A stretch of DNA of 64,000 bases from the NCBI RefSeq assembly GCF_006546625.1, contig NZ_VIAR01000002.1:124001-188000 (forward strand). Direction: 5' to 3'. Origin of the DNA: Haloflavibacter putidus. GTDB taxonomy: Bacteria; Bacteroidota; Bacteroidia; Flavobacteriales; Flavobacteriaceae. The translations under genes and the position numbers were made by a program. Of this stretch, positions 1 to 61,980 are shown in pieces (position 1 is the stretch's first letter; each line of letters begins with the position of its first letter). Under the pieces are notes generated by a model. That model did no database searches. It was not told the DNA's origin and saw only the letters and a list, made by a program, of their open reading frames with translations.

Positions 1-1014
1 AAAAAAGAGCCGGAAAAAGAAGAAGAATGGACGTACCGTTTGTCTGTTGGCAGACTACTTAAAATTGGGTTAACCTCCAATTATCTGCGCGGTATAGGCT
101 TGTTATTTTTTCTTTACGGAACAATTCAAAGCGAGATAAACCAATTTGCTGTAGATAACGAAGTAGTAGGAGATGCATCTGAATTTATGTCTAACTCTAC
201 CGAAATTATTTTTAAAAGCGCTTTGTACATTTTTATTGGCGCAATTTTACTTTTTTTTGCCGGTTTGCTTATAACCGTAGTAGAAGTTTTTATAAAATAT
301 TACAATCTTAAATTAACGCAAACCAAAACTAGTTTGCTGTTAGAGATGGGTTTAAAAACCACTAAACATATTGCGCTAAAGCCAAAAAGGGTTCAGCTTT
401 ATCGGGTGCTTACCAATCCCATTCAAAAAAAGCTAAATTTATATGAGGTGCAATTGGCAATTGCCGGAAGCACAGATGGTTTAAGTAAAAACAAAGTAAA
501 AATCCCCGGCTTAAAACAAGAGTTTTTAAAACATATTCATCGTTTTATATTTGATAAACCTTCTGAAAACGGAACGGTTTATAAACCTCATAAGATTTGG
601 ATTTTCCGTAAAGTAGTACGTTTTTCTATTATTCCTCTATTATTAATAACAGGATTAAACTTTATTTTTGAGTTTTCAGAATGGCATTATATTCTTCTAT
701 TTGGTGCTGTATTTTTAATTTTAGTAAGTGTTTATCAGTTTTTTGCTTATAGAAAGACTTATCTAAGTATATCGCCAAATTTCATTAGAAAAAATATAGG
801 TTTATGGAATCAAAAACAGGAAATTGCGGAGATATTCAAATTTCAAGGCGTTAGTATAAAGCAGCCTTTTTGGTACAAAAAAAGAGGGCTAGTAAATATT
901 ACTCTGCATACAGCCGGGGGCGATTTGCATTACAGATTTATTTCTGAAAGTGTAGCTAAAGAAATTAATTATATACTGTATAAAATAGAAACATCCACAA
1001 AAGCGTGGATGTAA
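1..1014 (+). CDS. PH-domain (bPH2/YdbT-like) membrane protein, 5'-truncated by the window edge
   Basis: The reading frame is open from base 1 and has no stop before the first possible start (a TTG at 40), so the true start lies outside the window. The visible part begins with a charged stretch (KKEPEKEEEW), then two hydrophobic segments (RGIGLLFFLYGTI and the stretch ALYIFIGAILLFFAGLL). A soluble part follows, then two more membrane segments and a C-terminal domain. Hydrophobic pairs separated by repeated soluble modules are typical of bacterial PH-domain proteins of the YdbS/YdbT type. The role of this family is poorly known; in Bacillus, YdbST is linked to resistance to antimicrobial peptides. 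Family assignment is from architecture only. The stop codon lies inside a terminator-like hairpin. Confidence 0.6.
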   Translation, partial: KKEPEKEEEWTYRLSVGRLLKIGLTSNYLRGIGLLFFLYGTIQSEINQFAVDNEVVGDASEFMSNSTEIIFKSALYIFIGAILLFFAGLLITVVEVFIKYYNLKLTQTKTSLLLEMGLKTTKHIALKPKRVQLYRVLTNPIQKKLNLYEVQLAIAGSTDGLSKNKVKIPGLKQEFLKHIHRFIFDKPSENGTVYKPHKIWIFRKVVRFSIIPLLLITGLNFIFEFSEWHYILLFGAVFLILVSVYQFFAYRKTYLSISPNFIRKNIGLWNQKQEIAEIFKFQGVSIKQPFWYKKRGLVNITLHTAGGDLHYRFISESVAKEINYILYKIETSTKAWM

Positions 1015-1028
1015 CTATTTTTATTTGT
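991..1028 (+). terminator. Rho-independent terminator overlapping the stop of the PH-domain gene
   Basis: An 8-bp perfect stem, ACATCCAC (991-998) and GTGGATGT (1005-1012), with a 6-nt loop, is followed by a T-rich run. The stem includes the last sense codons and the first base of the stop codon. The convergent E1 gene ends 20 nt downstream. Confidence 0.6.
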
Positions 1029-1047
1029 ATTTAAATTGCAGGTTTAT

Positions 1048-3450: not shown

Positions 3451-3611
3451 GCGTTGAATTTTTTTAGTGCTAGCGAAGATAAGAAAAATACTATTAAATT
3501 TCAACTAAAAAAGGAACCTATATATTATGAATTTTTTAGTGAAAAAGAAATGTATTGTGAATATGAAAATAAATGTATTGTTTTAAAGCTTTTTTTTACG
3601 GAAAAAACAAT

Positions 3612-6455
3612 TTAATACCAACGACGCGTAAATAATTTAGTAAGCGTATTAAAATCTAAAGAAACAATAAAACGTATTTTTTGGTCGTAGTCTGGTTGTG
3701 CAATTTCCCAACCTAGATTAGAATATACAGGAAAGAAAATCTCAAAATAGTCTTGTACTAAATTTACGCGAATTCCAGAATCGTAAACAAAATCAGCACT
3801 TTGTCCTTTATTTTTTAGAAAACCAACATCGCCGTAGGCCAAAATCCAATTCCATATAGTAACGCTAGAGTTTAAGGTGCTTATCCACTGGTTGGCAAAT
3901 GCAGGTTCTAATTGCGATTTAAAACCACCTTCTGCTTCAATAAACTGCTGACTAAATAAACCGCTGCTTTCGCTACGGCCATAGTAATTATAATCAAATA
4001 GATAATCTGTAGGTCGATCTAAAGCAAAGCTAAAATAATCTGAATCGTGGTTATCGTTATACAAAAACAAGCCGCTAAAGAATCTAAACTCTAACTGCCG
4101 GTTATTCAAAAATAATTTTCGCCATTTTGTAGTTATCGATATTTTACTGAATTTTTTTGCAACCTGATAATCTATATTATTGGTGTAATAATCTGTAAAA
4201 TTACGGTTGCTATAATTGTAATATATGTTAAGCACGCTATAATCTGGCTCGTCTACAGGATTTATAGAAGATTTGTCCCTAAAAACATTTACACTTCTAA
4301 TAATTAATTGCTGAGCTTGATTGGCACGCAAATTTTCGTCTCTAAATCGAATGTTTAAAAAAGGAGAAAATTTGTGATAATACAAATCTTTGGCATAGGA
4401 ATATCTGGTGCCGCTAAAACCATATTGTACCGCACTCAATTCTTCATTTCTGTATTGATGTGTGTTAGAAATAAATGCAGAACCCACCAAAGCGCCACTA
4501 TTTAAACCAATTTTAGGAGCTATTTTATAGTTAAAAGTTTTGCGTAAAAAGGTCTTGTTATACAATTTAGGACCAATAGTTAAACCGTCGTAAAGGTTGT
4601 AATCAAATTCTGGCATTATAAAAAATTGCTGGTAGCGGCTATCTTCTACATCCTGCAATAAGCGTAATTGCAATGGTTTATTTAATAAAGTACTTACGCG
4701 GTGGTAGTTATTACGTTCGTTTATTTCTGGGATAACATGTTCATAATTTAAGGCAATTCTATCTGCATCATCTCTAGCAATACGCACTGTTTTTTCTTGG
4801 TTAAAACCTTCTACCCAAAGTTTTGAAACTATACTGTCGTTTTTTATAGTATATAAAGAAACCGGCATCTGGTTTTCGTAGCGGTTTTTTAGGGTCACCT
4901 CCAGACTATCTTTAGATTTTTTTACGCGTTTTATCTTAAAATCTATAAGAGTATTACTTTGTACGTAATCATTAAAAAACCAATCTGCGTTTTTTTGACC
5001 ATATTTTTTTAAGATTGCCCGAAAATCTTCCGGGTTCACCGTTTGTAACTTATAATTTTGATAAAATTCTCGAATTGTTTTAGATAAAGCATCATTTTGT
5101 AAATAATCATTCAAATAGTTAAAACCAATCCCCGCTTTGTAAGGATTTGCAATGTTTTTATTGAATTTCACCAAAGAATCTTGTGGGGTAGTTAAAGCTT
5201 GGTCTAAATTTAAACGCGCCATATTTTGGTACAACATCGCATATTGACTATTAAAATCTAAGTCTGCCGCGTGAAACCAGCGTATACCAATTATATCACT
5301 AAAGTTTCCTATTAATTTTACGTCCGGATAAAAAACTTCTACATATTCTATCATTAAATAAATGTGAATAGCGTCTAATAACCAGCGTTCTTCGCGCGGA
5401 TTTAAGCGTAAAGTATTTTCTAAGTATTTTTTTGCAATAGTCTTCAGCAATTTAATATCGTATTGAAAACCATCTGGAAACGGTCGTATAAATTCTGGTA
5501 ATTGGTTAAAACCATATACCGGATTCACTTGGTAATCTTCCTGCGTAAGCAATAATTTTTTATGCGGATAATCTCCTAATTTTGTCTGTAGAAAATGAAG
5601 AACCCTATCTGTAATTAAAGCTCTTACTTCCGGCTGAATTTTACCTTCTTTTATGTTGGTTACCACTTGGGTAACATCTGTGTCGATGTTTCTAAAAGTA
5701 TCGGAATTTTTAATTAGATATAATTCGGTATTTAATTGGTTTTTACCAATTAGTTCTATCTGTTTGCTTTGCGTATTTTTTAATTCTTCGCTGATTTGGG
5801 TAAGGTTAGAATACACTTCATATTCCGGCGGAAGCTCTAAATCTATTTTCAAATCCATTAAAGGAAAAAACAGGTCGTTTAAATCTTTATTGCTGTAAAA
5901 ATTCCATTTGTTGGTATAATTTACCGGCGTTATAAGCCAGTATTTTAATTTAAAATTCTTATTTTCATAACCATAATTGCTAAAACGATGGTGCGGCGGT
6001 CTTACCCGGTAATTCAAATTTAAAGTAATACTGTCGCCGGGTTTTAATTTCCGTTGCAACGGAATTGCAATAACATCTGGATGCTTTTCCGGTCTAATCC
6101 AGTTTGTAACTTTATCTTTATTTATCTTTACGGAATTGATAAAAGTAAAACCCCTATCTGCTTTTTTGGCGTAATGAAAACTGCGTATATAATCTTCTGC
6201 AAAACGTTTTCCAAGAGGGGTGGTTTTACTTTTGTAGCTGTTGTTCCAATCGTTTAGGTAGAGGGTATCTAAATTTTTGGTAGATTGATTGGTATAAACA
6301 ATAGCTTGGTCTAACAATAATTCCCTTTCTAAACTATCGAGTTTTACCGCTACCTCAATATTGGTTTGGGCGTAACTGCTATAGTTGTAAAAACCAAGCA
6401 GAAACGCCAAAGTAAAAATTATTTTAAAAAACTTTTGGTCAATAAACGGAATCAT
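3612..6455 (-). CDS. Exported M1-peptidase-like protein without zinc site, fused to an outer-membrane beta-barrel
   Basis: A signal peptide (residues 1-30, cut after SSYAQ) leads into a region laid out like gluzincin M1 aminopeptidases, with beta-rich N-terminal domain and a helical segment near 335-375. Residues from about 590 to the end have alternating aromatic/polar strands and finish in RRWY, as outer-membrane barrels do. Where M1 enzymes carry HExxH plus a downstream glutamate, this protein reads KTIAKKYLE (338-346) and WLLDAIHIYL (358-367). None of the two histidines and two glutamates is present, so peptidase activity is unlikely. The gene begins 1 nt after the stop of the LOG-family gene, so the two are probably cotranscribed. 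Barrel fusion is seen directly as strand pattern; the M1 relationship is inference from layout. Confidence 0.65.
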   Translation of the reverse strand: MIPFIDQKFFKIIFTLAFLLGFYNYSSYAQTNIEVAVKLDSLERELLLDQAIVYTNQSTKNLDTLYLNDWNNSYKSKTTPLGKRFAEDYIRSFHYAKKADRGFTFINSVKINKDKVTNWIRPEKHPDVIAIPLQRKLKPGDSITLNLNYRVRPPHHRFSNYGYENKNFKLKYWLITPVNYTNKWNFYSNKDLNDLFFPLMDLKIDLELPPEYEVYSNLTQISEELKNTQSKQIELIGKNQLNTELYLIKNSDTFRNIDTDVTQVVTNIKEGKIQPEVRALITDRVLHFLQTKLGDYPHKKLLLTQEDYQVNPVYGFNQLPEFIRPFPDGFQYDIKLLKTIAKKYLENTLRLNPREERWLLDAIHIYLMIEYVEVFYPDVKLIGNFSDIIGIRWFHAADLDFNSQYAMLYQNMARLNLDQALTTPQDSLVKFNKNIANPYKAGIGFNYLNDYLQNDALSKTIREFYQNYKLQTVNPEDFRAILKKYGQKNADWFFNDYVQSNTLIDFKIKRVKKSKDSLEVTLKNRYENQMPVSLYTIKNDSIVSKLWVEGFNQEKTVRIARDDADRIALNYEHVIPEINERNNYHRVSTLLNKPLQLRLLQDVEDSRYQQFFIMPEFDYNLYDGLTIGPKLYNKTFLRKTFNYKIAPKIGLNSGALVGSAFISNTHQYRNEELSAVQYGFSGTRYSYAKDLYYHKFSPFLNIRFRDENLRANQAQQLIIRSVNVFRDKSSINPVDEPDYSVLNIYYNYSNRNFTDYYTNNIDYQVAKKFSKISITTKWRKLFLNNRQLEFRFFSGLFLYNDNHDSDYFSFALDRPTDYLFDYNYYGRSESSGLFSQQFIEAEGGFKSQLEPAFANQWISTLNSSVTIWNWILAYGDVGFLKNKGQSADFVYDSGIRVNLVQDYFEIFFPVYSNLGWEIAQPDYDQKIRFIVSLDFNTLTKLFTRRWY

Positions 6456-6456
6456 T

Positions 6457-10008: not shown

Positions 10009-10024
10009 AATTTTTTGCAAGCTG

Positions 10025-10183: not shown

Positions 10184-10227
10184 TTCCGTAAAGAAAAAAT
10201 TGGAATTTAAATGACGTTTTCCGTAAA
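10184..10227 (-). repeat. Two same-orientation copies of the CTTTACGGAA motif in the uvrA-acpH gap
   Basis: TTCCGTAAAG occurs at 10184-10193 and again at 10219-10228, 35 bp apart (start to start), in a 224-bp gap that contains no gene. A third copy, in opposite orientation, lies at 10862 beyond the ACP phosphodiesterase gene. These are the densest intergenic copies of the dispersed motif in the window. Confidence 0.7.
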
Positions 10228-10232
10228 GGAAT

Positions 10233-10829: not shown

Positions 10830-11001
10830 AAAGTAAAACTAATCAAAAATATAGTAGCAACTTTACGGAATGCTAAAATCTTTAGAAAACGAAGGCTTTG
10901 TAAAAATTATCCTAAAATACAGCAAAGCAAAGCAAGGGTTCGGGTTATAATTTTTATATTTCTGCTTTCAATATAAATCAACTTTAGAAACGATATAAAG
11001 A

Positions 11002-12488: not shown

Positions 12489-13886
12489 TTAATCAATTTT
12501 TCCTACCATATCTTCGGGTTTAACCCATTTATCAAATTCTTCTTCGGTAGTGTAGCCTAAATTAACCGCTTCTTCTTTTAAAGTTGTACCGTTTTTGTGG
12601 GCAGTATTGGCAATTTCGGCAGCTTTATAATAACCAATTTTGGTGTTTAATGCGGTTACCAACATCAAGCTGTTTTTTAACATCGTATCTATACGCTCTT
12701 GGTTTGGTTCTATGCCGGCAGCGCAATGTTCGTCAAAAGAAACAGAAGCATCGCCTAAAAGTTGTGCACTTTGCAATAAACTTGCTGCCATTACTGGTTT
12801 AAAAACGTTTAGTTCAAACTGACCTTGCATCCCGCCAACGGCAACACCCGCATCGTTACCAATAACTTGCGCGCAAACCATGGTTAAAGCTTCGCATTGC
12901 GTAGGATTTACTTTTCCGGGCATAATAGAAGAACCCGGCTCGTTGGCCGGAATGTTAATCTCTCCAATTCCGCTTCGTGGTCCCGAGGCCAACATTCTAA
13001 TATCGTTACCTATTTTATTTAAACTTACCGCCAATTGTTTTAAAGCCCCGTGGGTTTCTACCAAAGCATCGTGGGCGGCCAAAGCCTCAAATTTATTTTT
13101 GGCAGAGGTAAAGGGTAAATCGGTTAGCTCTGCTATTTTTTTAGCAACATTTTCTGCATAACCATCTGGTGTGTTTAATCCTGTTCCTACTGCAGTGCCG
13201 CCCAAAGCCAATTCTGCCATATGCGGTAACGTGTTTTTTAAAGCTTTTAAACCGTGGGTTAATTGCGAAGCATAACCACCAAATTCTTGTCCCAGGGTTA
13301 GGGGAGTGGCATCCATAAAATGCGTACGGCCAATTTTTACTACTTTTTTAAAATCTTCTGATTTTTTCCGTAAAGTATCGCGCAATTGCTCTACGCCAGG
13401 AATTGTGGTTTCTACCAATTTTTTATAAATGGCAATATGCATTCCTGTAGGAAAAGTATCATTAGAAGATTGCGATTTGTTTACATCGTCGTTTGGTTGT
13501 AATGTTTTATCGCCTTCACCAATTTTCTTTCCTGCCAATTGATGCGCACGATTGGCAATTACCTCGTTTACGTTCATATTGCTTTGCGTACCAGAACCGG
13601 TTTGCCAAATTACCAACGGAAATTGATCGTCATGTTTTCCTTCCAAAATCTCGTCACAAACCTTGGCAATCAAATCTCTTTTTTCTGTAGAAAGTACGCC
13701 GGCAGCTTCGTTGGTAAAAGCTGCTGCTTTTTTTAAGTATGCAAAGCCGTAGATGATTTCTAACGGCATAGAACCGGCGGGTCCAATTTTAAAATTATTT
13801 TTAGAGCGTTCTGTTTGTGCGCCCCAAAGTTTATTGGCCGGCACTTTTACTTCGCCCATCGTGTCTTTTTCTATTCTATATTCCAT
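12489..13886 (-). CDS. fumC: Class II fumarate hydratase
   Basis: A 465-residue TCA-cycle enzyme that hydrates fumarate to L-malate. It begins with [15 protein letters not shown], contains the substrate-site stretches [13 protein letters not shown] and [17 protein letters not shown], and the superfamily signature [15 protein letters not shown]. The length and iron-free architecture match class II enzymes rather than the Fe-S class I. A TAAATTTG -7 box lies upstream (minus strand 13920-13913). One CTTTACGGAA copy is embedded in the coding region, read as L-R-K. Confidence 0.95.
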
Positions 13887-14184
13887 TTGCGTGTGTTATT
13901 TTAAGGTTTTTACAAATTTAAACATTTAGCCGCTCAATTACCTTTAAATTGAAAATAGAATTTTGTTTTGCTTTACGGAATTGCCTCGGCTGTAAATCAA
14001 AATTCTAGAGAGTTTGATTTATAGAATTGCAGCTTACAGGAGAAATTTCAGCTACAGCTAAAATCATAAATAAAAAATCTGAACCTAAGCAGGGCGCCAT
14101 AAGCAGAATATATTTTTTAACTTTTCTTTGCAATTAATTTTAAAATATACTTATCTTTGAACAAATTCTTGAAATTTAAAAATT
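13887..14184. other. 298-bp intergenic region between divergent fumC and a small membrane-protein gene
   Basis: The region holds the fumC -7 box at its left end, a CTTTACGGAA motif at 13971-13980, and a complete promoter for the rightward small gene at its right end. The middle shows no open frame or stable hairpin that I can support. Confidence 0.6.
14127..14159 (+). promoter_or_regulatory. Bacteroidota-type promoter of the 63-residue membrane protein gene
   Basis: TTTG (14127-14130), a 21-bp spacer and TATCTTTG (14152-14159) match the -33/-7 consensus TTTG / TAnnTTTG for the primary sigma factor of this phylum. The start codon is at 14185. Confidence 0.7.
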
Positions 14185-17231: not shown

Positions 17232-18386
17232 ATGATACGAAAGATAAACACAGAGAAAATTCCCATAAAACTATGGTTAGAAGATATTGAAGAAGGCGCT
17301 TTGCAACAAGCAAAAGATTTGGCCAACTTAGAAATAGCTTTTAAACATATTGCTATCATGCCAGATTCTCACCAAGGCTACGGAATGCCGATTGGCGGGG
17401 TTTTGGCCACAAAAGACGCAATTATTCCAAATGCTGTTGGCGTAGATATTGGCTGCGGAATGTGCTGCCTGCGAACAGATTTGAAAGAAATAAACACCGC
17501 AGATTTAAAAAACGTTATGAAGCAAATACGGCAAACTGTTCCTGTGGGTCATAAGCACCACAAAGAAAAACAGGATGAGAAGTATATGCCTGTTTTAAAA
17601 GAAAATCTGCCAATAGTTTCTAAAGAATACGAGCGAGGGAGAGATCAGGTAGGGACTTTAGGTGGTGGCAATCATTTTATAGAAATTCAGCGCGGTTCAG
17701 ATGATTATATCTGGATAATGGTACATTCCGGCTCCAGAAATATTGGTTATACAACAGCCAAACATTATCACGAAAAAGCAATAGAAGAGACCAAAAAACG
17801 CGGTAATAATGTACCAAAAGATCTTTCTTATTTTATTCGTGGTACAGAATATTATGATAATTATTTTAAGGAAATGAATTATTGTATCGAGTTTGCCTTG
17901 CAAAATAGAAAATTGATGATGTATAGGGTAAAAGAAGCCTTTACGGAATTGTTACCGTCTGTACAATTTTCAAATTTTATTAATAAACCACATAATTTTG
18001 CTGCTTGGGAAAGGCATTTTGAAGAAAATTTAATGGTACACAGAAAAGGTGCCACCCGCGCCGAAGAAGGCGAGTGGGTGATGATACCCGGCTCACAAGG
18101 CACAAATTCTTACTTGGTTAGAGGCAAAGGAAATGCCAAGTCTTTTAATTCTTGTTCGCACGGTGCCGGCAGAGTTATGAGCCGAACCAAAGCTAGAAAG
18201 TCGCTAAACTTTAAAGAAGAAGTAGCTCAATTAAAAAACAAGGGAATTCTACATGCTTTACGTCATAAAAAAGACTTGGACGAAGCACCAGGCTCATACA
18301 AAGACATTAAAAATGTTATGCGCTTGCAAAAAGATTTGGTAAACATAGTGGTAGAGCTAGCGCCATTGGGAGTAGTTAAAGCTTAA
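17232..18386 (+). CDS. rtcB: RtcB-family RNA ligase
   Basis: RtcB joins RNA 2',3'-cyclic phosphate or 3'-phosphate ends to 5'-OH ends using GTP and Mn2+. Metal and nucleotide residues are visible: DIGCGM with C75, GGGNHFIE, HSGSRNIG, and SCSHGAGR with H310 as the expected guanylated histidine. The protein is 384 residues from MIRKINTEK, slightly shorter than E. coli RtcB. The frame extends 18 codons upstream, but that part has an unlikely hydrophobic composition for a cytosolic ligase, so 17232 is chosen. No RtcA or archease gene is adjacent; its job may be RNA repair. A CTTTACGGAA copy lies at 17939 in the coding region. Confidence 0.9.
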   Translation: MIRKINTEKIPIKLWLEDIEEGALQQAKDLANLEIAFKHIAIMPDSHQGYGMPIGGVLATKDAIIPNAVGVDIGCGMCCLRTDLKEINTADLKNVMKQIRQTVPVGHKHHKEKQDEKYMPVLKENLPIVSKEYERGRDQVGTLGGGNHFIEIQRGSDDYIWIMVHSGSRNIGYTTAKHYHEKAIEETKKRGNNVPKDLSYFIRGTEYYDNYFKEMNYCIEFALQNRKLMMYRVKEAFTELLPSVQFSNFINKPHNFAAWERHFEENLMVHRKGATRAEEGEWVMIPGSQGTNSYLVRGKGNAKSFNSCSHGAGRVMSRTKARKSLNFKEEVAQLKNKGILHALRHKKDLDEAPGSYKDIKNVMRLQKDLVNIVVELAPLGVVKA

Positions 18387-21494: not shown

Positions 21495-21520
21495 TTCTTT
21501 ACGGATTTGTTTATTGCTAA

Positions 21521-21599: not shown

Positions 21600-22625
21600 A
21601 TGAAAATAGACCTAAAAAGCGATACGGTAACCAAACCAACGCCCGCAATGTTAGAAGCAATTATGAATGCAGAAGTAGGCGACGATGTCTATAAAGAAGA
21701 TCCTACGGTAAACGAATTAGAGTCGCGCTTGGCTAAAATGTTTGGTAAAGACAAAGCGCTGTTTTTCCCTACCGGAAGTATGGCCAACCAAGCGGCCATA
21801 AAATTACACACCCAACCCGGCGAACAACTTATTTGCGATAAATGGGCGCACGTTTATAATTACGAAGGCGGCGGCGCTTCGTTTAACAGCGGTGTTTCGT
21901 GTAGATTATTAGATGGTAATCGCGGAATGGTAACAGCGGAACAGGTGGAAGCAGCTATCAATCCACCGGACTTTTACCACAGTCCGTTAACTTCTTTGGT
22001 TTGTTTAGAAAACACGACCAATAAAGGTGGTGGAGCGTGTTATGACTTTACGGAAATTGAAAATATCCGTAAAGTTTGCGATAAAAACCAACTGGGTTTG
22101 CATTTGGATGGCGCGCGTTTGTTTAATGCTTTGGTAGCCAAAAACGAAACTCTCAAACAATATGGCGAAGTGTTCGATACCATTTCTATTTGTTTATCGA
22201 AAGGCTTGGGCACGCCATTGGGCTCTGTTTTAATAGGCGAAGAAGCTTTAATGAAAAACGCCATGCGTGTTCGGAAAGTTTTGGGTGGCGGAATGCGACA
22301 AATAGGGTTTATGGCCGCAGCAGGTTTGTATGCCTTAGAAAATAATATAGAACGCTTGAAAGAAGACCACCAACGCGCAAAAGAACTGGGCAAAATTTTA
22401 GAAGAACAAGAATATATTAAAGAAGTAGAGCCGGTAGAAACCAATATTATAATTTTCTATCTAAACGAAACAGTTTTAAGTCAGCAGCAATTTATGCAAA
22501 AACTGGAAGAAAAAAACATAGGTATAAGCGCAATGGGCGAAGGTAAAATGCGAATCGTAACGCATTTGGATTATACGGGAGAGATGCATGAGAAGCTTAT
22601 CAATTTTTTACGACATTTCAATTAA
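21600..22625 (+). CDS. ltaE: Low-specificity L-threonine aldolase (PLP-dependent)
   Basis: This enzyme cleaves L-threonine or L-allo-threonine to glycine and acetaldehyde. The 341 residues open with DLKSDTVTKPTPAMLEAI, include EDPTVNELE and FPTGSMANQ, LHLDGARLFNA, and the PLP lysine K201 in CLSKGLGTPLGSVL. The arrangement is that of fold-type I beta-eliminating lyases in the threonine aldolase family. It is monocistronic, divergent from prfB. A CTTTACGGAA motif and a CTTTACGGAT variant occur 9 bp apart in its coding region near 22046-22074. Confidence 0.9.
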   Translation: MKIDLKSDTVTKPTPAMLEAIMNAEVGDDVYKEDPTVNELESRLAKMFGKDKALFFPTGSMANQAAIKLHTQPGEQLICDKWAHVYNYEGGGASFNSGVSCRLLDGNRGMVTAEQVEAAINPPDFYHSPLTSLVCLENTTNKGGGACYDFTEIENIRKVCDKNQLGLHLDGARLFNALVAKNETLKQYGEVFDTISICLSKGLGTPLGSVLIGEEALMKNAMRVRKVLGGGMRQIGFMAAAGLYALENNIERLKEDHQRAKELGKILEEQEYIKEVEPVETNIIIFYLNETVLSQQQFMQKLEEKNIGISAMGEGKMRIVTHLDYTGEMHEKLINFLRHFN

Positions 22626-25838: not shown

Positions 25839-26879
25839 ATGAGAGAAGACTTACAGGTTTATAACGATGTATTACAACTCATAGGTGATACCCCTCTAAT
25901 CAAATTAAACCGTATAACAAAAGACTTTGATGGTGATTTTTATGCCAAAGTAGAAGCATTTAATCCCGGTCATAGTACAAAAGATAGAATTGCGCTTTAT
26001 ATTATTGAAGAAGCAGAACGCAAAGGAATTTTAAAACCGGGAGACACTATAATAGAAACTACCTCTGGCAATACAGGTTTTAGTATTGCAATGGTAAGCG
26101 TAATAAAAGGTTACGATTGTATTTTGGCAGTAAGCTCTAAATCTTCTACAGATAAAATAGACATGTTAAAAACAATGGGCGCAAAAGTTTATGTATGTCC
26201 CGCGCACGTCTCTCCGGACGACTCCAGATCATATTATCAGGTAGCCAAACGTTTGCACCAAGAAATGAAGGGTTCTGTTTATATCAATCAATATTTTAAC
26301 GAGCTTAATATAGATGCGCATTACCGCACAACCGGGCCAGAAATCTGGAAACAAACCGAAGGTGAAATTACGCACCTAATAGCGTGTAGTGGTACCGGCG
26401 GCACTATTTCTGGTACTGCGAGATATTTAAAAGAACAAAACCCTAACATTAAAATTATAGGTATAGATGCTTATGGTTCGGTATTAAAAAAATACCACGA
26501 AAGTAAAGAATTAGACCCTAGCGAGATTTACCCTTACCGAATTGAAGGTTTGGGAAAAAACCTAATTCCTACTGCTACAGATTTTGATATTATAGACAGG
26601 TTTATAAAAGTTTCTGATGAAGCTGCCGCGCATACAGCTCGTAATATTGCTCGCACAGAAGGTCTTTTTGTGGGCTATACCAGCGGAGCGGCTTTTCAAG
26701 GCGTAAAACAACTGGAAGAAGAAGGTGAGTTTGATGCAGATAGCAAAGTAGTTATTATTTTCCCGGATCACGGTTCGCGTTATATGAGCAAAATTTATAG
26801 CGACAACTGGATGCAAGAGCAAGGTTTTTCGGATAGCGAAAACAATGTAGGAGCAGAGAAAGTAGAATATATAAAGTAA
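25839..26879 (+). CDS. capA: PLP-dependent cysteine-synthase-like enzyme, probable cysteate synthase of sulfonolipid synthesis
   Basis: A fold-type II PLP enzyme of 346 residues. The PLP lysine is K48 in [16 protein letters not shown] binds the substrate carboxylate and [10 protein letters not shown] the cofactor phosphate. Generic annotation would be cysteine synthase or cystathionine beta-synthase. The next gene is an SPT-like synthase, and the capnine pathway of gliding Bacteroidota uses CapA, a CBS-related enzyme making cysteate from O-phosphoserine and sulfite, followed by CapB. That pairing makes CapA the more likely role here. A conventional cysteine or cystathionine synthase remains possible. 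It starts 86 bp after the ptrB stop, with TAAATTTG at 25765. Confidence 0.65.
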
Positions 26880-27079
26880 TCCGTAAAGTAAACGGATAAA
26901 GCTTTAATTAAGTCGAGGATTAACTTTGGTTTATGCTTATTATCAAACTGAATTTTGCTAAAATACGATAGGTAGTAAACTGTAGAATAAAGAAGAACAT
27001 CTTAGTTACATCTTTTTGACTAAGAGGTGATTATATTAAAAAATCAAGTCGTTTAGAAAGCTGGTAAGGTTTATATTAG

Positions 27080-29684: not shown

Positions 29685-30025
29685 AGTATAAAGTTAGATT
29701 AAAAGCCACAATATTAACAATTTTTTTAAATTACTACCTACTATATATACCCAAATATTAAACCAATAGAAACTTTTTTTGAAAATAAAAAACCGCTAAC
29801 TTGAGAGTATAAACCTGTAGAAAAATTCAAATTTCTGTATTGGTTTGGAAACGAAAATATTGCCTGCTATTTAGAAAAAAAGTTGCGTTATAGAAAAAAG
29901 TTTTAAAACAAAACCAAGTATCTTCTTTTACTTTTTTGTTGAAACAAGAATATATTTATCTACTTTACGGAAATTATAGCGGTGAAAGACATAGGGTTAT
30001 CAACCTGAAGAATAATTTTGAAACT
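29685..30025. other. 341-bp AT-rich intergenic region
   Basis: No credible coding region. One CTTTACGGAA copy is at 29963-29972. A low-complexity TTC/TTT-rich run just to the right belongs to the basic/acidic tail of the next gene. Any further structure is not supported. Confidence 0.5.
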
Positions 30026-40600: not shown

Positions 40601-41248
40601 ATTTTTGTGGTACGCTTGTATGACGCTTTTTCTACCTATTTTTTGGGTAATTTCGTCTTGCTCTAAATTCCAACCGCGGGCCGGACAATATTCTCTTCCG
40701 TAAAGTATAATTTGTATATGCAGTTTATTCCATATTTCTTTAGGGAAAAGCCGTTTGGCATCTTTTTCTGTCTGTTTTACGCTTTTGCCCGTAGATAAAT
40801 TCCAACGATACATAAGTCTGTGTATATGCGTGTCTACAGGAAAAGCCGGTACATTAAAAGCTTGTGACATTACAACGCTGGCAGTTTTGTGTCCTACGGC
40901 TGGTAACTCTTCCAGCGCTTCAAAACTGGCGGGAACCTTTCCGTCGTGCTTTTCTAACAAAATTTCTGACAAACCGTAAATTCCTTTTGCTTTCATAGGC
41001 GATAAACCTACCGGTTTTATTATTTCCCTTATTTCTTCCACACTAAGTGTAAGCATTTTTTGCGGTGTATCTGCTTTTTTAAAAAGAATAGGGGTAATCT
41101 CATTTACTTTTTTGTCTGTGCTTTGAGCAGATAATAAAACTGCAATTAATAAAGTGTACGGATCTCTATGGTCTAACGGGATGGCAACTTTGGGATATAT
41201 CTCATTTAACTTATTTATAACAAACGCAACTTTTTCTTGTTTGGTCAT
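40583..41248 (-). CDS. nth: Endonuclease III without the usual 4Fe-4S cysteines
   Basis: A 221-residue HhH-GPD DNA glycosylase/AP lyase. The helix-hairpin-helix reads LEELPAVGHKTASVVM, with catalytic K121, and D139 is in FPVDTHIHRL. These match the K120/D138 pair of E. coli Nth, so catalysis should be intact. E. coli Nth has a C-x6-C-x2-C-x5-C cluster loop; here the region reads REYCPARGWNLEQDEI with a single C188. The iron-sulfur cluster is therefore absent. I recall this pattern in other Flavobacteriaceae. A CTTTACGGAA core lies at 40696 (antisense). It is divergent from bcp. Confidence 0.85.
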   Translation of the reverse strand: MTKQEKVAFVINKLNEIYPKVAIPLDHRDPYTLLIAVLLSAQSTDKKVNEITPILFKKADTPQKMLTLSVEEIREIIKPVGLSPMKAKGIYGLSEILLEKHDGKVPASFEALEELPAVGHKTASVVMSQAFNVPAFPVDTHIHRLMYRWNLSTGKSVKQTEKDAKRLFPKEIWNKLHIQIILYGREYCPARGWNLEQDEITQKIGRKSVIQAYHKNKKTRK

Positions 41249-47502: not shown

Positions 47503-47746
47503 AATTTAGATTTGGCAAGGTTTGCCGGAAATACCAAGTATTTTATGCTCTTTGTCTATTACGGCAAAGAATATTTTATTTGAGAGCAACTAGTTAGTAG
47601 TTTATTAAAAAAGAAAATTTTACTTTACGGAAAAAGAAAATGCAGAACTGCTCAAATATTGAACTTTTATCAATATTTAGCTACTAGAAATGTAGCAGTA
47701 TAGCTTATATTTAGTAAAAATTTTTCAGTAGAAAAATAATACAAGT

Positions 47747-51671: not shown

Positions 51672-52722
51672 AACGTAAATTGCTTAAAAAATGCAAGGTA
51701 TCTACTCCGTCTGCATAATCGGTTAAAGCTGGATGCTGACTTTCTCCAAAATCTACATGTTTTGAGGAAGAAGAAACGATGCATTGTAATTTTTTTTCAT
51801 CGTTTTTTAACTTTACGGAAAGTTCTTCTTCGTTATTATAGTATTCGTAAAACAAACAAGCAATAGGAGAAGAGTAGGAGGTGTCTTCTTTTAAAACAAG
51901 AAAATTATTGTCTAGCAATTTTATATTGCTCATTAAATATACCGCTTTGTTATAATCGTAATTATTGGCATATTTATGATGATTAATAATTGGGTGCCAA
52001 TCATAAATAGCTTCAAAAAATACGCTAAAATCATAATTTTTAGGCACAAAAAGTTTGGAAACATTTCTACAGCCTAAACCGTAATATCTAAAAATATCTT
52101 CGGCAAGGGCTTTTAATTGCTGTGTAGTTTCTTTGCCGGTTAAAATAGCTACAGCATTTCTGTTTTTTCTTATAATTGCCGGTTTTTTCCTAAAGTAATA
52201 ATCAAAATACCGGGCGGTATTGTTGCTTCCGGTAGCAATTACAGCATCAAAATTTTTGAGTTGTTCTTTTTCAAAAGCGATTAAATTTTCAAAATCTTTG
52301 TTATACTTAATAAGTATTTCGGCTAAAGCCGGTAACAAAAACTTATCGTTAGAAGACATTTTCACCAAGGCTTTATTACCCGATAAAAGCACGCTAAGAA
52401 AATCATGAAAGCCAACTAAAGGAATATTTCCTGCCATAATTATAGCAACTGTCTTTTGGGAGGTAGGAAAAGTATAAGCCGCCGTCCAATTTTCTAATTT
52501 TTCTTTGGTGAGGGCTTGCGACCATTGGTTTAAAGCAAAATAGATATTCTCTTTGGTAAACCAGCCATTATGTTGCAAGCTTACTTCTATAGCTTCAGCC
52601 AGTTTTTTATGTTCTGGGGTTAAAGCAGATTCGTTATTATTTTCTTCGGAAAATTGGGTAATATGCTCCTTTAAAAAATTTCCTACGGCAGTAAAAGCTT
52701 TTATACGGGTTTCTAGTCTCAT
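51658..52722 (-). CDS. LuxC-like acyl-CoA reductase
   Basis: A 354-residue protein with family motifs: an AIIMAGNIPLVGFHDFLSVLLSGN stretch that forms the cofactor site, KMSSNDKFLLPALAEI, ATGSNNTARYFDYYF, and the catalytic-type cysteine in YYGLGCRNVSKLFVP. Such proteins reduce fatty acyl-CoA to aldehyde and resemble LuxC of luminescence systems, but no other lux gene is present. The serC overlap suggests translational coupling. Substrate is unknown. It shares a divergent promoter region with ferredoxin; the ferredoxin -33 element begins 5 bp from its start. Confidence 0.8.
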   Translation of the reverse strand: MRLETRIKAFTAVGNFLKEHITQFSEENNNESALTPEHKKLAEAIEVSLQHNGWFTKENIYFALNQWSQALTKEKLENWTAAYTFPTSQKTVAIIMAGNIPLVGFHDFLSVLLSGNKALVKMSSNDKFLLPALAEILIKYNKDFENLIAFEKEQLKNFDAVIATGSNNTARYFDYYFRKKPAIIRKNRNAVAILTGKETTQQLKALAEDIFRYYGLGCRNVSKLFVPKNYDFSVFFEAIYDWHPIINHHKYANNYDYNKAVYLMSNIKLLDNNFLVLKEDTSYSSPIACLFYEYYNNEEELSVKLKNDEKKLQCIVSSSSKHVDFGESQHPALTDYADGVDTLHFLSNLRYEKA

Positions 52723-52726
52723 ATAA

Positions 52727-53696: not shown

Positions 53697-53848
53697 AATA
53701 GTTGTTTTTTCTAATTTTACACAAATATAAGGCTTGGGCTTGTTAATTTATTATAAGTAAAAACTAATGTTTACTTAATCTTTACGGAAGGAAAGCGTTT
53801 GTTTACCCAAACATTTTTTATATTTGCAACTTTTTAAAATAAACGATT

Positions 53849-54943: not shown

Positions 54944-54981
54944 GCAAAGCTTTTTTAGCAGAAAACGATATAATAATTAAA

Positions 54982-55007
54982 GAAAGTCCGGGAACGGGCT
55001 TTTTTTA
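54982..55007 (+). terminator. Terminator after ychF
   Basis: AAAGTCCG pairs with CGGGCTTT (one G-U) across a 4-nt loop, followed by a T-run. Confidence 0.7.
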
Positions 55008-55174
55008 TAGGGTATTTTTACACTTTTATCGAAAAGCTAAGGAGTAATCTTATTATTAAAGAAATGTTAATATATTTCGGTACAAAAATTTATGCTTGCT
55101 GTAAAATACATATTTTTAGATGTAGGCTAAAAACTTTACATACAAATGTATTTCATGAGTTTAAATAAAAATAT

Positions 55175-57364
55175 ATGTTAAGGTACTTTTGTATTTTATT
55201 TTTCGCGCTATTTATCTTGTCTGCATCTTCGCAAGAATATGAAGATATTGCCACAGATTCTTTGGAGCAATATTTAGAAGAATGTTACGAGCACTTTGAG
55301 AAAAGTGAATTTGTAGAATCCGTAAAGATTGCCAATAAACTTTTAGATGCATCGCATAAAAAAGATAACAAACATTTTAAAGCAGAAGCCTATTATTTTC
55401 TTGGTTTAGTAGACGAAATAACCAGAAGTTACGATAGAGCAGAAGTAAAGTACTTAAAATCGCTGTCTATCGTAAAAGAGCTGAAAGATACTTTATTTAT
55501 TGTAGATATTTACAACGGATTAGGAAGTGTTACTGCTTTAAAAGACAAGAATTTTAAAAAATCAGAAGCTTATTATCTTGAAGGCTTAGATCTTGCAGAA
55601 AAAATTAATTCGCAATACACCGCTACTTTAACTTTAAATTTGTGTTGGAATTATTTAGACCAAAACAAACCAGAAAAGGTTACTCCATATGTTAGTCGGT
55701 TACAAAGTTACCTGAAAAACCCTCCAGACGATGGCGACGAACCACTTACACGAAGCAGTATTAACCACGTTTTAGGTAGATATTATACACACAAAAACAG
55801 GTTTGAAAACGCAGAACGTTTATTTAAAAAGTCTATTGCGTTAGGAAAAAAGCACGATTTGTACGAGCAATTGCAATATGCTTATTTATATAGTAGCAAA
55901 GCTTACGCGAAAAATAATAACCACCAAGCAGCGTACAAACATTTACAAGAGCATTTAAAATATAAAGAAATATTTGTAAACAGAGATCTCACAGAAAAAC
56001 TAAGGGCAGAAGGTATACGATTTAAGCTTGCCGAATACGAACGAGCTTTAGAAACTTCTAAACGAGGCGAAGAGCTTATGGCTTCTATTGCTGCCTCGCG
56101 CAATAAATTAATTTGGGTTTATACATTTGTTTTTGTGGTGCTACTCATATTATTGATAATCATTTTTAAAGAAAACCGCACCAAAAGAAAATTAATTAAG
56201 TTTCTAAACCAAAATAACGAAGCTTTAAAAAGAGCCAACCAAAAAGCAGATGCGGCAGCCAAGATAAAATCGCAATTTATTAATAGCATAAGCCACGAGA
56301 TTCGCACTCCGTTACACGGTGTAGTTGGTATAACTTCTCTTTTATTGGCTGAAAAAGAAATTTCTGACGGGAATAAACAGCTTCTCGAATCGCTTAAATT
56401 CTCTGGAGATTATCTGTTAAGTTTAATTAACAATGTGTTGCTAATTAGTAAAATAGATAACCACAAAGTAAAAATAAGACCAAAAGAAACAGATTTAAAA
56501 AGCTTTACGGATAATATTACCAATTCTGTACAATTTTCTGCAGAAAAAAATGATTGTCAGGTTCACGTAGATTTGTCGCGCGATATTCCTTCAAAAGTAA
56601 TGATAGATAGCACGATACTTTTTGAAATTTTAATAAACCTGATAGAAAATGCAATAAAATTTACTAAAAGCGGAAAAGTAATTCTATCTATAAAATTGGT
56701 GCAAGAAAAAGAAAATAAACTTGTCTTACAGTTTGCCGTAACAGACAATGGTGCCGGAATACCAAAAGATAAAAAAGAAGAGATATTTAACGAGTTTTCG
56801 CAAGTTAACCTAGACACCAGTATTATGGAAGGAACCGGCTTAGGACTTTCTATAGTAAAAAAATTGCTTGATTTGATGGATAGCGAAATACAAGTAGAAA
56901 GCAAATTAGGGAAGGGTACTACTTTTTATTTTGACTTAATCTGCGCTAAAATTAAAGATACACCAGCTCATAAAAAACTGGTAACCAACAAAAAATTGCT
57001 TGCCAACGCTCGCATTTTGCTTATAGAAGACAATAAAATTAACCGTATGGTCATAGAGAAATTCTTATCTGCTTACCAGGTTAATTTAGATATAAAAGAC
57101 GAAGGTAAAGAAGGTTATCAAGCAATAACTCAAAATGAATACGATTTAATTTTACTCGATATTAATATACCCGGTATGAATGGCTTTGAAATATCCCAAA
57201 AAGTTCGAGAGACGCAAAACAATGTTCCTATAATTGCTGTAACAGCTTCAGAATTACGAGAAATTCAAGAAAAAGCAGATCTTGCCGGTATAGATGATAT
57301 TTTAATAAAGCCATTTAGCAAAGAAAAACTAGTGGCAATTATAGAAAAACATCTACTTAAATAG
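55175..57364 (+). CDS. TPR-containing hybrid histidine kinase with receiver domain
   Basis: A 729-residue two-component protein. A signal sequence (MLRYFCILFFALFILSASSQ) leads to tetratricopeptide-like helices (about 25-275), then a transmembrane helix at about 310-335 (KLIWVYTFVFVVLLILLIIIF). A coiled-coil follows, then HisKA with H374 in INSISHEIRTPLHG, a HATPase (NLIENAIKF, DNGAGI, GTGLGLSI) and a receiver with D662 in LLDINIPGMNGFE and conserved K in LIKPF. It senses a periplasmic input and passes phosphate to its own receiver. No DNA-binding response regulator is adjacent, so the output partner is elsewhere. Confidence 0.9.
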   Translation: MLRYFCILFFALFILSASSQEYEDIATDSLEQYLEECYEHFEKSEFVESVKIANKLLDASHKKDNKHFKAEAYYFLGLVDEITRSYDRAEVKYLKSLSIVKELKDTLFIVDIYNGLGSVTALKDKNFKKSEAYYLEGLDLAEKINSQYTATLTLNLCWNYLDQNKPEKVTPYVSRLQSYLKNPPDDGDEPLTRSSINHVLGRYYTHKNRFENAERLFKKSIALGKKHDLYEQLQYAYLYSSKAYAKNNNHQAAYKHLQEHLKYKEIFVNRDLTEKLRAEGIRFKLAEYERALETSKRGEELMASIAASRNKLIWVYTFVFVVLLILLIIIFKENRTKRKLIKFLNQNNEALKRANQKADAAAKIKSQFINSISHEIRTPLHGVVGITSLLLAEKEISDGNKQLLESLKFSGDYLLSLINNVLLISKIDNHKVKIRPKETDLKSFTDNITNSVQFSAEKNDCQVHVDLSRDIPSKVMIDSTILFEILINLIENAIKFTKSGKVILSIKLVQEKENKLVLQFAVTDNGAGIPKDKKEEIFNEFSQVNLDTSIMEGTGLGLSIVKKLLDLMDSEIQVESKLGKGTTFYFDLICAKIKDTPAHKKLVTNKKLLANARILLIEDNKINRMVIEKFLSAYQVNLDIKDEGKEGYQAITQNEYDLILLDINIPGMNGFEISQKVRETQNNVPIIAVTASELREIQEKADLAGIDDILIKPFSKEKLVAIIEKHLLK

Positions 57365-57453
57365 CGGGCATAAAAAAAAATAAATACTTTCTAAAAAAGA
57401 GGTTTTATTTTCGCTTAAAACCTACTATATTAGCCGTACAGCATTAATCTTAT

Positions 57454-59313: not shown

Positions 59314-59352
59314 AAAAAGTATAAATTAAAACGCGATTAGTTTTATTGCTTA

Positions 59353-61980
59353 ATGGATATAGAAAACCCAAACGAAGAAAACGAACAGAATAATATAGAA
59401 GAGAATAACCAAGAGGTTTTAACCAAAGTTTCCGGTATGTATAAAGACTGGTTTTTGGATTATGCCTCTTACGTTATTTTAGAGCGTGCAGTGCCGGCCG
59501 TAGAAGATGGTTTTAAACCGGTGCACAGACGTATAATGCATTCTATGAAAGACCTGGACGATGGCCGCTACAATAAAGTTGCCAATATTGTAGGACATAC
59601 AATGCAATACCACCCGCACGGCGATGCTAGTATTGCAGACGCTATGGTGCAAATTGGTCAAAAAGAATTATTGATTGATACGCAAGGAAACTGGGGTAAT
59701 ATTTTAACCGGAGACCGCGCCGCTGCGCCAAGATACATAGAAGCGCGTCTTTCTAAATTTGCGTTAGAAGTTGTTTTTAACCCAAAAACAACCGATTGGC
59801 AAAATTCTTATGACGGTCGTAAAAAAGAACCGGTGACCTTGCCGGTAAAATTTCCTTTACTTTTAGCGCAAGGAGCAGAAGGTATTGCGGTTGGATTGAG
59901 CACGCGTATTTTACCACACGATTTTAACGAACTTATAGACGCTTCCATAAAGCATTTAAAAGGTAAACGTTTTAAATTATTTCCAGATTTTCCTACCGCC
60001 GGTATTATGGATGTAAGCAATTACAACGATGGTTTGCGCGGCGGCAAGGTGAGAATACGGGCTAAAATTAATCAAAGAGACAAAAATACGCTGGTTGTTA
60101 CCGAAATACCTTATGGCACTACAACTTCCAGTTTAATAGACTCGGTTATAAAAGCCAACGAAAAAGGCAAGATTAAAGTAAAACATATAGAAGATAATAC
60201 GGCAGAAAATGTAGAAATACTCATTCATTTACCCAATAATTTATCGCCAGATAAAACTATAGATGCGCTGTACGCTTTTACCAATTGCGAGATTTCTATA
60301 TCGCCATTAAGTTGTATAATTATAGATCATAAACCACATTTTATTGGGGTTTCAGAAATTTTACGACTTAGTACAGACCACACTTTGTCGCTCTTAAAAA
60401 AAGAGTTAGAAATAAAGTTGCACGAGCTGGAAGAACAATGGCATTTCTCTTCTTTAGAACGAATTTTTATAGAAAAAAGAATTTACCGAGACATAGAAGA
60501 AGAAGAAACTTGGGAAGGCGTAATTGCTGCCATAGACAAAGGTTTGCAACCGCATATTGGGCATTTAAAAAGAGCCATAACTACAGAAGATATTACGCGA
60601 TTAACAGAAATAAAAATCAAACGCATTTCGCGTTTTGATCTAGATAAAGCACAACAAAAAATTGATGCTTTAGAAGATGAAATTGCACAAGTAAAACATA
60701 ATCTAGACAATTTAATTGCCTTTGCAATAGCCTATTTTGAAAGTCTTAAAAAGAACTATGGTGAAGGCCGCGAACGTAAAACAGAATTGCGTTTGTTTGA
60801 AGATATAGAAGCTACAAAAGTGGTTATTCGCAATACAAAATTGTACGTTAATAGAAAAGAAGGTTTTATTGGTACTTCTTTACGGAAGGATGAATACGTA
60901 ACAGATTGTAGCGATATAGACGATATTATTTGCTTTACGGAAGATGGGACAATGCGCGTAACCAAAGTAGACAGTAAAACCTTTATTGGCAAAAATATTA
61001 TTCACGTTGCTGTTTTTAAGAAAAAAGACAAACGCACTATTTATAATGTTATTTATAAAAACGGCAAAGGCGGTAATAATTACTTAAAACGTTTTGCAGT
61101 AACGTCTATAACCCGCGATAGGGAATATAGTGTTGGTAAAGGAAAACCTGGCACGCAAGTACTTTATTTTTCGGCCAACCCTAATGGCGAAGCAGAAGTG
61201 GTTACCGTATATTTACGCCAAAAAGGACAGCTTAAGAAATTAAAATTTGAAGTAGACTTTGCCGACTATAAAATTAAAGGAAGAGGCGTAAAAGGAAATT
61301 TAATTACCAAACACGCCGTTAAGCGAATTGAACTAAAAGAAGAGGGTGTTTCTACTTTAAAACCAAGAAAAATTTGGTTTGACGATGTCGTGCAACGTCT
61401 AAATACAGATGAAAGAGGAGAACTGATAGGAGAGTTTAAAGGCGAAGACAGAATTTTGTTGGTAACGCAAGATGGTTTAGTAAAAACCATTGTTCCGGAA
61501 CTAACTACACGTTTTGATGAAGCATACGTGGTATTGGAAAAATGGATTCCCGAAAAACCAATCACAGCAGTTTATTGGGAAGGAGAAAAAGAGCGGTATT
61601 ATGTAAAACGTTTCCTAATTGAAAATCCAGAAAGAGAAGAACTTATTATTACCGAGCACCCTAAATCCCAATTAGAATTAATTTCTACAGATTATATACC
61701 GCTGTTAGAAATGGTTTTTAAAAAAGCAAAAGGCAAAGAAAGAAAACCAAACGAAACGCTTAATTTAGAAGAGTTTATTGCTGTAAAAGGTATAAAAGCC
61801 CAAGGCAATCAATTAACCACAGATAAGGTAAAACAACTAAATTTACTAGAACCCATTGCCTATAAAGAAGAAGACGAAGAAGAGGAAGTTACTGAAAATA
61901 ACAAGAATCAGATAGAAGAAGAAAAAGACGATAACGCCAATAACAAAAAAGATGACGAGTCGCAACCTACGTTGTTCTAA
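59353..61980 (+). CDS. parC: DNA topoisomerase IV subunit A
   Basis: A 875-residue enzyme. Its winged-helix breakage domain has VHRRIMHSM and HPHGDASI, and the active tyrosine is Y128 in APRYIEARLSKFA. A coiled-coil gate (LEDEIAQVKHNLDNL) and a C-terminal beta-pinwheel (VTSITRDREYSVGKGKPGTQ) follow. The last 40 residues are highly acidic (EEDEEEEVTENNK). The missing GyrA-box and operon with parE favour topoisomerase IV. Two TTTACGGAA copies lie within it, at 60879 and 60934, in different frames (L-R-K and F-T-E). Confidence 0.85.
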   Translation: MDIENPNEENEQNNIEENNQEVLTKVSGMYKDWFLDYASYVILERAVPAVEDGFKPVHRRIMHSMKDLDDGRYNKVANIVGHTMQYHPHGDASIADAMVQIGQKELLIDTQGNWGNILTGDRAAAPRYIEARLSKFALEVVFNPKTTDWQNSYDGRKKEPVTLPVKFPLLLAQGAEGIAVGLSTRILPHDFNELIDASIKHLKGKRFKLFPDFPTAGIMDVSNYNDGLRGGKVRIRAKINQRDKNTLVVTEIPYGTTTSSLIDSVIKANEKGKIKVKHIEDNTAENVEILIHLPNNLSPDKTIDALYAFTNCEISISPLSCIIIDHKPHFIGVSEILRLSTDHTLSLLKKELEIKLHELEEQWHFSSLERIFIEKRIYRDIEEEETWEGVIAAIDKGLQPHIGHLKRAITTEDITRLTEIKIKRISRFDLDKAQQKIDALEDEIAQVKHNLDNLIAFAIAYFESLKKNYGEGRERKTELRLFEDIEATKVVIRNTKLYVNRKEGFIGTSLRKDEYVTDCSDIDDIICFTEDGTMRVTKVDSKTFIGKNIIHVAVFKKKDKRTIYNVIYKNGKGGNNYLKRFAVTSITRDREYSVGKGKPGTQVLYFSANPNGEAEVVTVYLRQKGQLKKLKFEVDFADYKIKGRGVKGNLITKHAVKRIELKEEGVSTLKPRKIWFDDVVQRLNTDERGELIGEFKGEDRILLVTQDGLVKTIVPELTTRFDEAYVVLEKWIPEKPITAVYWEGEKERYYVKRFLIENPEREELIITEHPKSQLELISTDYIPLLEMVFKKAKGKERKPNETLNLEEFIAVKGIKAQGNQLTTDKVKQLNLLEPIAYKEEDEEEEVTENNKNQIEEEKDDNANNKKDDESQPTLF

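Follow-up and report, generated by a model that had tools for sequence, protein, structure and literature searches.

The 10-mer CTTTACGGAA, which recurs throughout a 64-kb stretch of DNA from Haloflavibacter putidus (hereafter the window), is probably a DNA uptake sequence of its source species (genome G000) and of a sister species, comparable to the words of Neisseria and the Pasteurellaceae; judging from sequence evidence, we assign this reading a probability of about 0.6. The word is strongly enriched across the genome independently of codon use, is preferentially found between genes, is conserved in the sister species, occurs in species dialects, is restricted to part of the genus Mesonia, and lacks strong strand polarity. 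Both ComEC and a gene pair of the type required for transformation in Riemerella are present in the same genome. Being dense, nearly unpolar, codon-independent and strongly conserved, richest in permissive DNA and different between species, the word carries the signature known from uptake sequences (PMC3630211, PMC2346458, PMC2397512).

In the window, TTTACGGAA occurs in 24 exact copies on the two strands between positions 113 and 60942, precisely the number given in an earlier note on this DNA, while 100 dinucleotide shuffles yielded an expectation of 1.65 copies and a maximum of 5. The pattern CTTTACGGAW, i.e., CTTTACGGA followed by A or T, which was used for whole-genome counts, is present 23 times compared to 0.35 expected. 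Eighteen of these copies are CTTTACGGAA and five are CTTTACGGAT, in agreement with the 18 copies and at least five variants previously claimed. Under a third-order Markov model, no 9-mer in the window exceeds its expectation more strongly than CTTTACGGA (23 versus 0.68). Nine of these 23 copies are intergenic according to our own open reading frame (ORF) calls; the earlier count had also arrived at nine, starting from the 24 copies of TTTACGGAA.

The excess is not limited to the window. The source genome (2,923,547 bases in 53 contigs) contains 843 copies of CTTTACGGAW, or approximately 0.29 per kb, compared to 17 copies of the reversed pattern used as a control. These copies are divided between the forward (420) and reverse (423) orientations, indicating that the strand excess within the window, where 18 copies of TTTACGGAA lie on the plus and 6 on the minus strand, is local; the earlier observation that 18 copies face one way thus holds for the window but not for the genome. 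Architecture statistics were compiled for 461.6 kb of the 2.92 Mb, comprising 20 stretches of contigs C1–C4 and the window. Here, CTTTACGGA is again the strongest 9-mer, with 120 copies versus 5.4 under the third-order Markov model, and these Markov expectations, in the window and in the 461.6 kb, rule out base composition as the main cause. At the tenth position, 82% of copies have A and 14% have T, C is rare (3%) at position 11, and the flanks are weakly T-rich before the word and weakly A-rich after it. When CTTTACGGAA and its complement were ranked among all 25,200 permutations of its letters, the word came first with 99 copies compared to a mean of 0.7, and the next unrelated permutation (42 copies) proved to be part of a CRISPR repeat. 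Synonymous-codon shuffling within genes left 4.5 genic copies on average, with a maximum of 8 in 40 rounds, compared to 80 observed, so neither protein sequence nor codon use makes the word, and codon use was rejected as the main cause. The proposal in the earlier note that selection acts at the level of the DNA is therefore supported, as the excess survives both the Markov model and the codon shuffle.

The distribution of the 120 copies relative to genes was determined with our own ORF script rather than curated annotation, and differences between scripts give 81 or 80 genic copies and 39 intergenic copies, or 38 in the table of gap types. In total, 52 copies are genic and in the sense direction, 29 are genic and antisense, and 39 are intergenic. 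Intergenic DNA makes up 13.1% of bases, so that the word is three-fold denser between genes, bearing out the intergenic preference that had been put forward for checking. The synonymous shuffle itself yields 3.5 sense versus 1.0 antisense copies, and the sense excess therefore needs no special cause. Antisense copies are most frequent in the initial fifth of genes (12 of 29), and sense copies number 10, 7, 11, 15 and 9 in successive fifths. Density is 0.55 per kb in tandem gaps, 0.90 in divergent gaps and 0.80 in convergent gaps. Of the 22 copies in tandem gaps, 18 are closer to where the upstream gene ends than to where the next one begins, compared to 49:44 for other CGGA words in such gaps (49 of 93 nearer the upstream gene's end); the copies avoid the promoter side.

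Enrichment in intergenic DNA and just past the ends of genes would also be expected of a regulator binding site, or of a terminator or other RNA element, and 6 of the 120 copies do have an inverted partner of 9–10 bases within 45 bases, compared to 10 among 5000 randomly chosen places; four of these six constitute two inverted pairs of full copies. Against such a role, two thirds of the copies are genic, on both strands, tandem-gap copies are split 11:11 in direction, and no Rfam family reached the cut-off in the window. The remaining 114 copies lack a long inverted partner, and partners of at least 6 bases show no excess over random places (13% versus 15%). A hairpin terminator, as judged by inverted repeats rather than T runs, was accordingly rejected as the main cause, and we consider a regulator site or RNA element quite improbable.

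Two 35.7-kb stretches of G000 are devoid of the word. One contains EF-G, SecY and many short genes, and was taken as a ribosomal-protein cluster, while the other contains accessory-looking genes. Uptake sequences are expected to be scarce in recently acquired DNA, and there is one copy in 27 kb at the CRISPR-Cas end of contig C1, but the word is likewise missing from the EF-G/SecY cluster. The array itself (C1:114833-118065, locus L014) contains 42 matches to the repeat core CAATGAGGTGCGATTG or its complement, with Cas6, Cas3 and Cas1 genes beside it.

Whole-genome counts of CTTTACGGAW in 16 Mesonia genomes, including the source, divide the genus. The word is abundant in seven (G005, 906; G000, 843; G015, 324; G003, 292; G001, 239; G012, 231; G006, 224) and at or near background in nine (G007, 56; G008, 30; the other seven, 7–22). 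Among 397 Flavobacteriaceae genomes, the three Mesonia had 843, 239 and 224 copies, while the highest counts in the 394 others were 109 and 78. The maximum outside Mesonia came from G333, a 5.0-Mb genome of genus g113 with 109 copies versus 21 of the reversed pattern. In a separate set of 44 non-Mesonia genomes, partly from other families, the highest count was 74. The word therefore belongs to part of Mesonia and not to the Flavobacteriaceae in general, and the suggestion to look for it in related Flavobacteriaceae was borne out for that part of the genus but not for the family. De novo scans of named 20-kb loci (those of at least 12 kb among 80) detected no similar word, although these loci are too short for exclusion.

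Further dialects were evident among the bearers. For dialect analyses, 60–360 kb of each relative was sampled, excluding G013, whose sample consisted of three short contigs (4970 bases) with no usable letters. CTTDDCGGAA (D = A, G or T) is the dialect of Mesonia algae (G003) and G015, with 865 and 734 copies in the whole genomes compared to 53 and 82 for the reversed controls; G007 has 266 versus 71, and weaker excesses are found, for instance, in G008 (124 versus 85) and G009 (87 versus 47). A third form, CTTTACGGATT, is the dialect of G001, G006 and G012 (116, 109 and 113 copies), and is present 53 times in G000, 55 in G005, 35 in G015, 20 in G003 and at most 13 times in each of the remaining nine. 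CTTTACGGAA, CTTTACGGATT and CTTDDCGGAA share the frame CTT..CGGA, as is expected of the species dialects of an uptake sequence. A search anchored on CGGA recovered no comparable word in the sampled word-less Mesonia, and we therefore abandoned the view that each species has its own dialect. Six word-less species form a single clade in the ComEC tree, so loss of the word in that clade is plausible, but the ParE tree, from which G012 is absent, does not resolve the deepest branches of the genus.

Two other words were encountered in these samples. In GCTTNCGCGGAA, CTT and CGGAA are separated by three bases. Across samples of 15 Mesonia genomes, this word is present at 0.013–0.083 per kb in G007 and all seven bearers and a single time in 220 kb of G008, and it is absent from the samples of G009, G011, G014, G010, G004 and G002; it could represent a second uptake word or a variant in spacing. 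Words of the TTGCTGAAG/CTTCAGCAA type are enriched several-fold in the samples of G010, G011 and G014, which may be a codon effect.

Conservation was measured on one 64-kb region, the window, in one species pair. The closest relative of G000 among the 16 Mesonia is G005, with ParE DNA 91.4% identical; ParE identity of the window is 90% to M. algae and 89% to Mesonia hippocampi (the ParE DNA of G003 is identical to the former, and that of G009 to the latter). The window aligns to G005 with 89.4% identity over 61,840 bases. Of its 23 copies, 21 could be aligned and 19 were intact, confirming the conservation that had been proposed as a check, compared to 42.5% of all 9-mers in the alignment (binomial p 6.6e-6) and 112 of 264 ACGGA 9-mers away from copies. 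Base identity is 186/189 within copies and 1067/1199 in their flanks, such that the word is conserved above its surroundings, and intact copies predominate inside genes (12 of 13) as well as between them (7 of 8). Viewed from the G005 side, there are 28 copies, of which 19 are intact in G000, six differ and three are unaligned. The coordinates of all copies in the window are compiled in the table.

Copies of CTTTACGGAW in the window and their state in other Mesonia genomes
Feature	Position	Strand	State in relatives
CTTTACGGAA copy	112..121	+	not aligned to G005
CTTTACGGAA copy	604..613	-	intact in G005
CTTTACGGAA copy	6126..6135	+	intact in G005
CTTTACGGAA copy, intergenic	10184..10193	-	intact in G005
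CTTTACGGAA copy, intergenic	10219..10228	-	not intact in G005
CTTTACGGAA copy, intergenic	10861..10870	+	intact in G005
CTTTACGGAA copy	13366..13375	-	intact in G005
CTTTACGGAA copy, intergenic	13971..13980	+	intact in G005
CTTTACGGAA copy	17939..17948	+	intact in G005
CTTTACGGAT copy, intergenic	21497..21506	+	intact in G005, G001, G006
CTTTACGGAA copy, half of inverted pair with 22065..22074	22046..22055	+	intact in G005
CTTTACGGAT copy, half of inverted pair with 22046..22055	22065..22074	-	intact in G005
CTTTACGGAT copy, directly behind gene end	26879..26888	-	intact in G005
CTTTACGGAA copy, intergenic	29963..29972	+	not aligned to G005
CTTTACGGAA copy	32878..32887	+	intact in G005, G003
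CTTTACGGAA copy	40696..40705	-	intact in G005
CTTTACGGAA copy, intergenic	47623..47632	+	intact in G005
CTTTACGGAA copy	51811..51820	+	intact in G005
CTTTACGGAA copy, intergenic	53780..53789	+	intact in G005
CTTTACGGAT copy	55318..55327	-	one base different in G005
CTTTACGGAT copy	56503..56512	+	intact in G005
CTTTACGGAA copy in parC-type gene 59353-61980 (PF00521)	60878..60887	+	intact in G005
CTTTACGGAA copy in parC-type gene 59353-61980 (PF00521)	60933..60942	+	intact in G005, G003

A self-propagating or defence-related mark that spreads without uptake, such as a sequence recognised by a mobile element or by a methylase particular to the species, would share several of these properties, being taxon-restricted, different between species and conserved once present. 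The differences between the sister species, however, look like point changes rather than insertions, with five of the six differing G005 copies deviating by one base, and restriction sites are usually avoided rather than enriched. We therefore regard such a mark as improbable.

The orientation of the copies bears on the two chromosomal words to which the earlier note had likened this one in addition to uptake sequences, namely Chi and the FtsK-orienting sequences (KOPS). Neighbouring copies share their orientation in 61 of 115 cases in G000, 50 of 101 in stretches of M. algae and 39 of 70 on M. algae contig C1, while a 75:25 bias predicts 62.5% (chance of so few, 0.02, 0.005 and 0.15, respectively). 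There is thus no strong strand polarity, while a weak bias is possible in a genome that is in contigs without a located origin or terminus. These tests rule out a strongly polar chromosome word as the main cause, and they speak against KOPS and weaken the case for Chi, leaving uptake as the best-fitting of the three analogies.

Chi words are short, dense and largely inside genes, as is the word described here, and a Chi-like recombination hotspot read by a nuclease of the AddAB/RecBCD type has further points in its favor. G000 encodes two PF12705 proteins approximately 5 kb apart, one of AddB size (938 aa) and one of AddA size (1059 aa). Copy orientation in G000 shows a weak correlation with the strand of genes in the region (rho 0.20, p 0.03) and an equally weak one with regional GC skew (rho 0.20, p 0.03), although for the 39 intergenic copies neither correlation is significant (rho 0.10 for gene strand; rho 0.21, p 0.19 for GC skew). 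On M. algae contig C1, 100-kb bins differ in orientation (p 0.015, small counts), but five pieces of G000 are alike (p 0.25), and all three neighbour fractions fall below the 62.5% expected. Chi would predict polarity and presence of the word in any relative retaining the nuclease. An AddB-like protein, scored by presence only, occurs in all 16 Mesonia, of which seven have the word in abundance, so Chi fits less well, and neither a word that changes within one genus nor the 39 of 120 copies between genes would be anticipated for such a site. On balance, a Chi-like role appears unlikely.

A chromosome-organising site, KOPS-like or otherwise, that is recognised by a nucleoid protein or DNA translocase would likewise be a short genome-wide word with hundreds of copies. 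KOPS are strongly polar toward the terminus, and polar guidance requires strong replichore polarity, which was not seen. For any basic chromosome function, dialects within a genus and near-background counts in 9 of 16 species would be unexpected. We consider this possibility very remote, and KOPS, terminators and regulators all fit worse than an uptake sequence.

ComEC and a DUF5689 protein are present in all 16 Mesonia. Transformation of Riemerella is described as requiring ComEC, DprA, ComF and RecA and, among further factors, two neighbouring genes whose products are a DUF5689/DUF5017 protein and a barrel that carries a carboxypeptidase-regulatory domain (PMC8459023). The corresponding pair in G000 consists of a 929-aa CarboxypepD_reg/Plug barrel followed directly by a 448-aa DUF5689+DUF5017 protein, whose start, by our own reading, appears lipoprotein-like. 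The 2.0-kb comEC gene of G000 contains all three word copies of the comEC locus, and the DUF5689 gene contains one copy in G000 and one in G005 as well. An AlphaFold model of the DUF5689 protein, of middling quality (mean pLDDT 76, pTM 0.55), matches jelly rolls of adhesins and carbohydrate-binding proteins, and also the telomerase factor Teb1, an OB-fold protein, with an E value of 2e-5 and a low TM-score.

The DUF5689 protein is highly divergent. Between G000 and G001 it is 36% identical, compared to a median of 70% for 31 window proteins, two of which are below 40%; between G000 and G003 it is 54% identical, compared to a median of 68% for 27 window proteins, six of which are at or below 55%. 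The tree of the gene (loci L261–L276) conflicts with the ParE and ComEC trees, and this conflict, together with the divergence, suggests that the gene has been replaced by exchange within Mesonia. On this tree, possession of the word is clustered, with two changes versus a shuffled mean of 5.5. The DUF5689 protein, together with its barrel partner, is a candidate uptake receptor, although the fit of its tree to the word is not clean. The neisserial receptor ComP is a minor pilin of the type IV pilus. PF00437, the ATPase family shared by type IV pili and type II secretion, was above the cut-off in four of the 16 Mesonia (G002, G012, G013 and G014), and matches in the remaining twelve were weak and below it. 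The latter include six of the seven bearers (G000, G005, G003, G015, G001 and G006), in a search that did not extend to ComP or pilins.

From these features we infer that the two sister species are competent, that a receptor binds the word, and that the word affects uptake. In the mechanism we propose, a surface receptor of the natural-competence machine would bind double-stranded DNA carrying the word and pass it inward across the outer membrane and then to ComEC, DprA and RecA. Word-bearing DNA would be taken up and recombined more often, causing the word to accumulate across the genome, where it would be kept by biased gene conversion, by selection for uptake of DNA from kin, or by both. 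A change in the receptor would change the word and give rise to species dialects within the shared CTT..CGGA frame, and where uptake specificity was lost the word would decay. In a more specific form, which we put forward tentatively and hold to be somewhat less than an even bet, this would be an uptake word that arose independently in the Bacteroidota without a type IV pilus, read by a TonB-type barrel and a surface lipoprotein with OB-like and adhesin-like jelly-roll folds, with dialects acting as a mating barrier and loss in part of the genus.

Several observations weigh against an uptake sequence. ComEC and DUF5689 are present with or without the word, and so do not discriminate bearers. 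In the DUF5689 tree, the word-less G004 groups with G000, G005, G003 and G015, and the two deep receptor types both include bearers. One-mismatch forms of the word show only a mild excess. The spacing of copies fits an exponential distribution and is no more even than random (Kolmogorov–Smirnov p 0.46), and the EF-G/SecY cluster, which is core DNA, is as empty as the accessory-looking stretch. Both orientations are used without general bias, as expected, but the weak regional signals described above (p 0.015–0.03) are left over. Finally, most dialects of Neisseria are denser than the Mesonia word (counts in PMC3630211).

Among other genes noted during this work, the window contains two of the UvrA type (7177-10020 and 36733-39522), and a third UvrA-like protein of 1498 aa is encoded at L017:6852-11348.

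To our knowledge, uptake words are established only in the Neisseriaceae and Pasteurellaceae, both of which use type IV pili for uptake, and among the literature matches listed (open-licence papers, in part the top 20, 15 or 10 of thousands) there was no report of an uptake-type word in the Bacteroidota. If the word is indeed an uptake sequence, this independent case would show that DNA self-tagging evolves repeatedly, and a new kind of receptor would be indicated, since six of seven bearers have no PF00437 ATPase above the cut-off. The word of a species would then predict which DNA it takes up, offering a direct way to probe by experiment how marine flavobacteria exchange genes.

In comparison with known systems, the Mesonia word is short and genome-wide like KOPS but lacks their strong polarity. 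With Chi sites, read by RecBCD or AddAB, it has in common a short, mostly genic and genome-wide word, but it is without strong polarity, varies within a genus, and is not abundant in nine relatives that keep an AddB-like protein. The Riemerella machinery (barrel RS04915 and DUF5689 protein RS04920) has its counterpart in the adjacent pair with the same domains in G000. A preference for own DNA is reported for R. columbina, and the putative words given for Riemerella and F. johnsoniae are A-rich k-mers only, of low complexity in R. columbina (PMC7965970); the portions of the Riemerella transformation papers at hand offer no specific uptake word (PMC7965970, PMC8459023). The Pasteurellaceae uptake sequences (AAAGTGCGGT, ACAAGCGGTC) are different words, and their bias toward gene ends is only partially reproduced in Mesonia, but they too are short, lack a general orientation bias in the genome, and have one orientation commoner in reading frames (PMC2346458), as do the 52 sense and 29 antisense copies here. 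There is also a likeness in form to the DNA uptake sequences of the Neisseriaceae (ATGCCGTCTGAA and its dialects), which differ in sequence and phylum and are read via the type IV pilus, whose PF00437 ATPase is not above the cut-off in six of seven Mesonia bearers. They are likewise 10–12-mers with hundreds to thousands of copies in both orientations, are common between genes, are conserved above their surroundings, and form dialects around a core (PMC3630211, PMC2397512, PMC2346458), the dialects differing between species there as well (PMC3630211). Their conservation in Neisseria, at 97% compared to approximately 85% for average conserved sequence (PMC2397512), resembles that of the word between G000 and G005.

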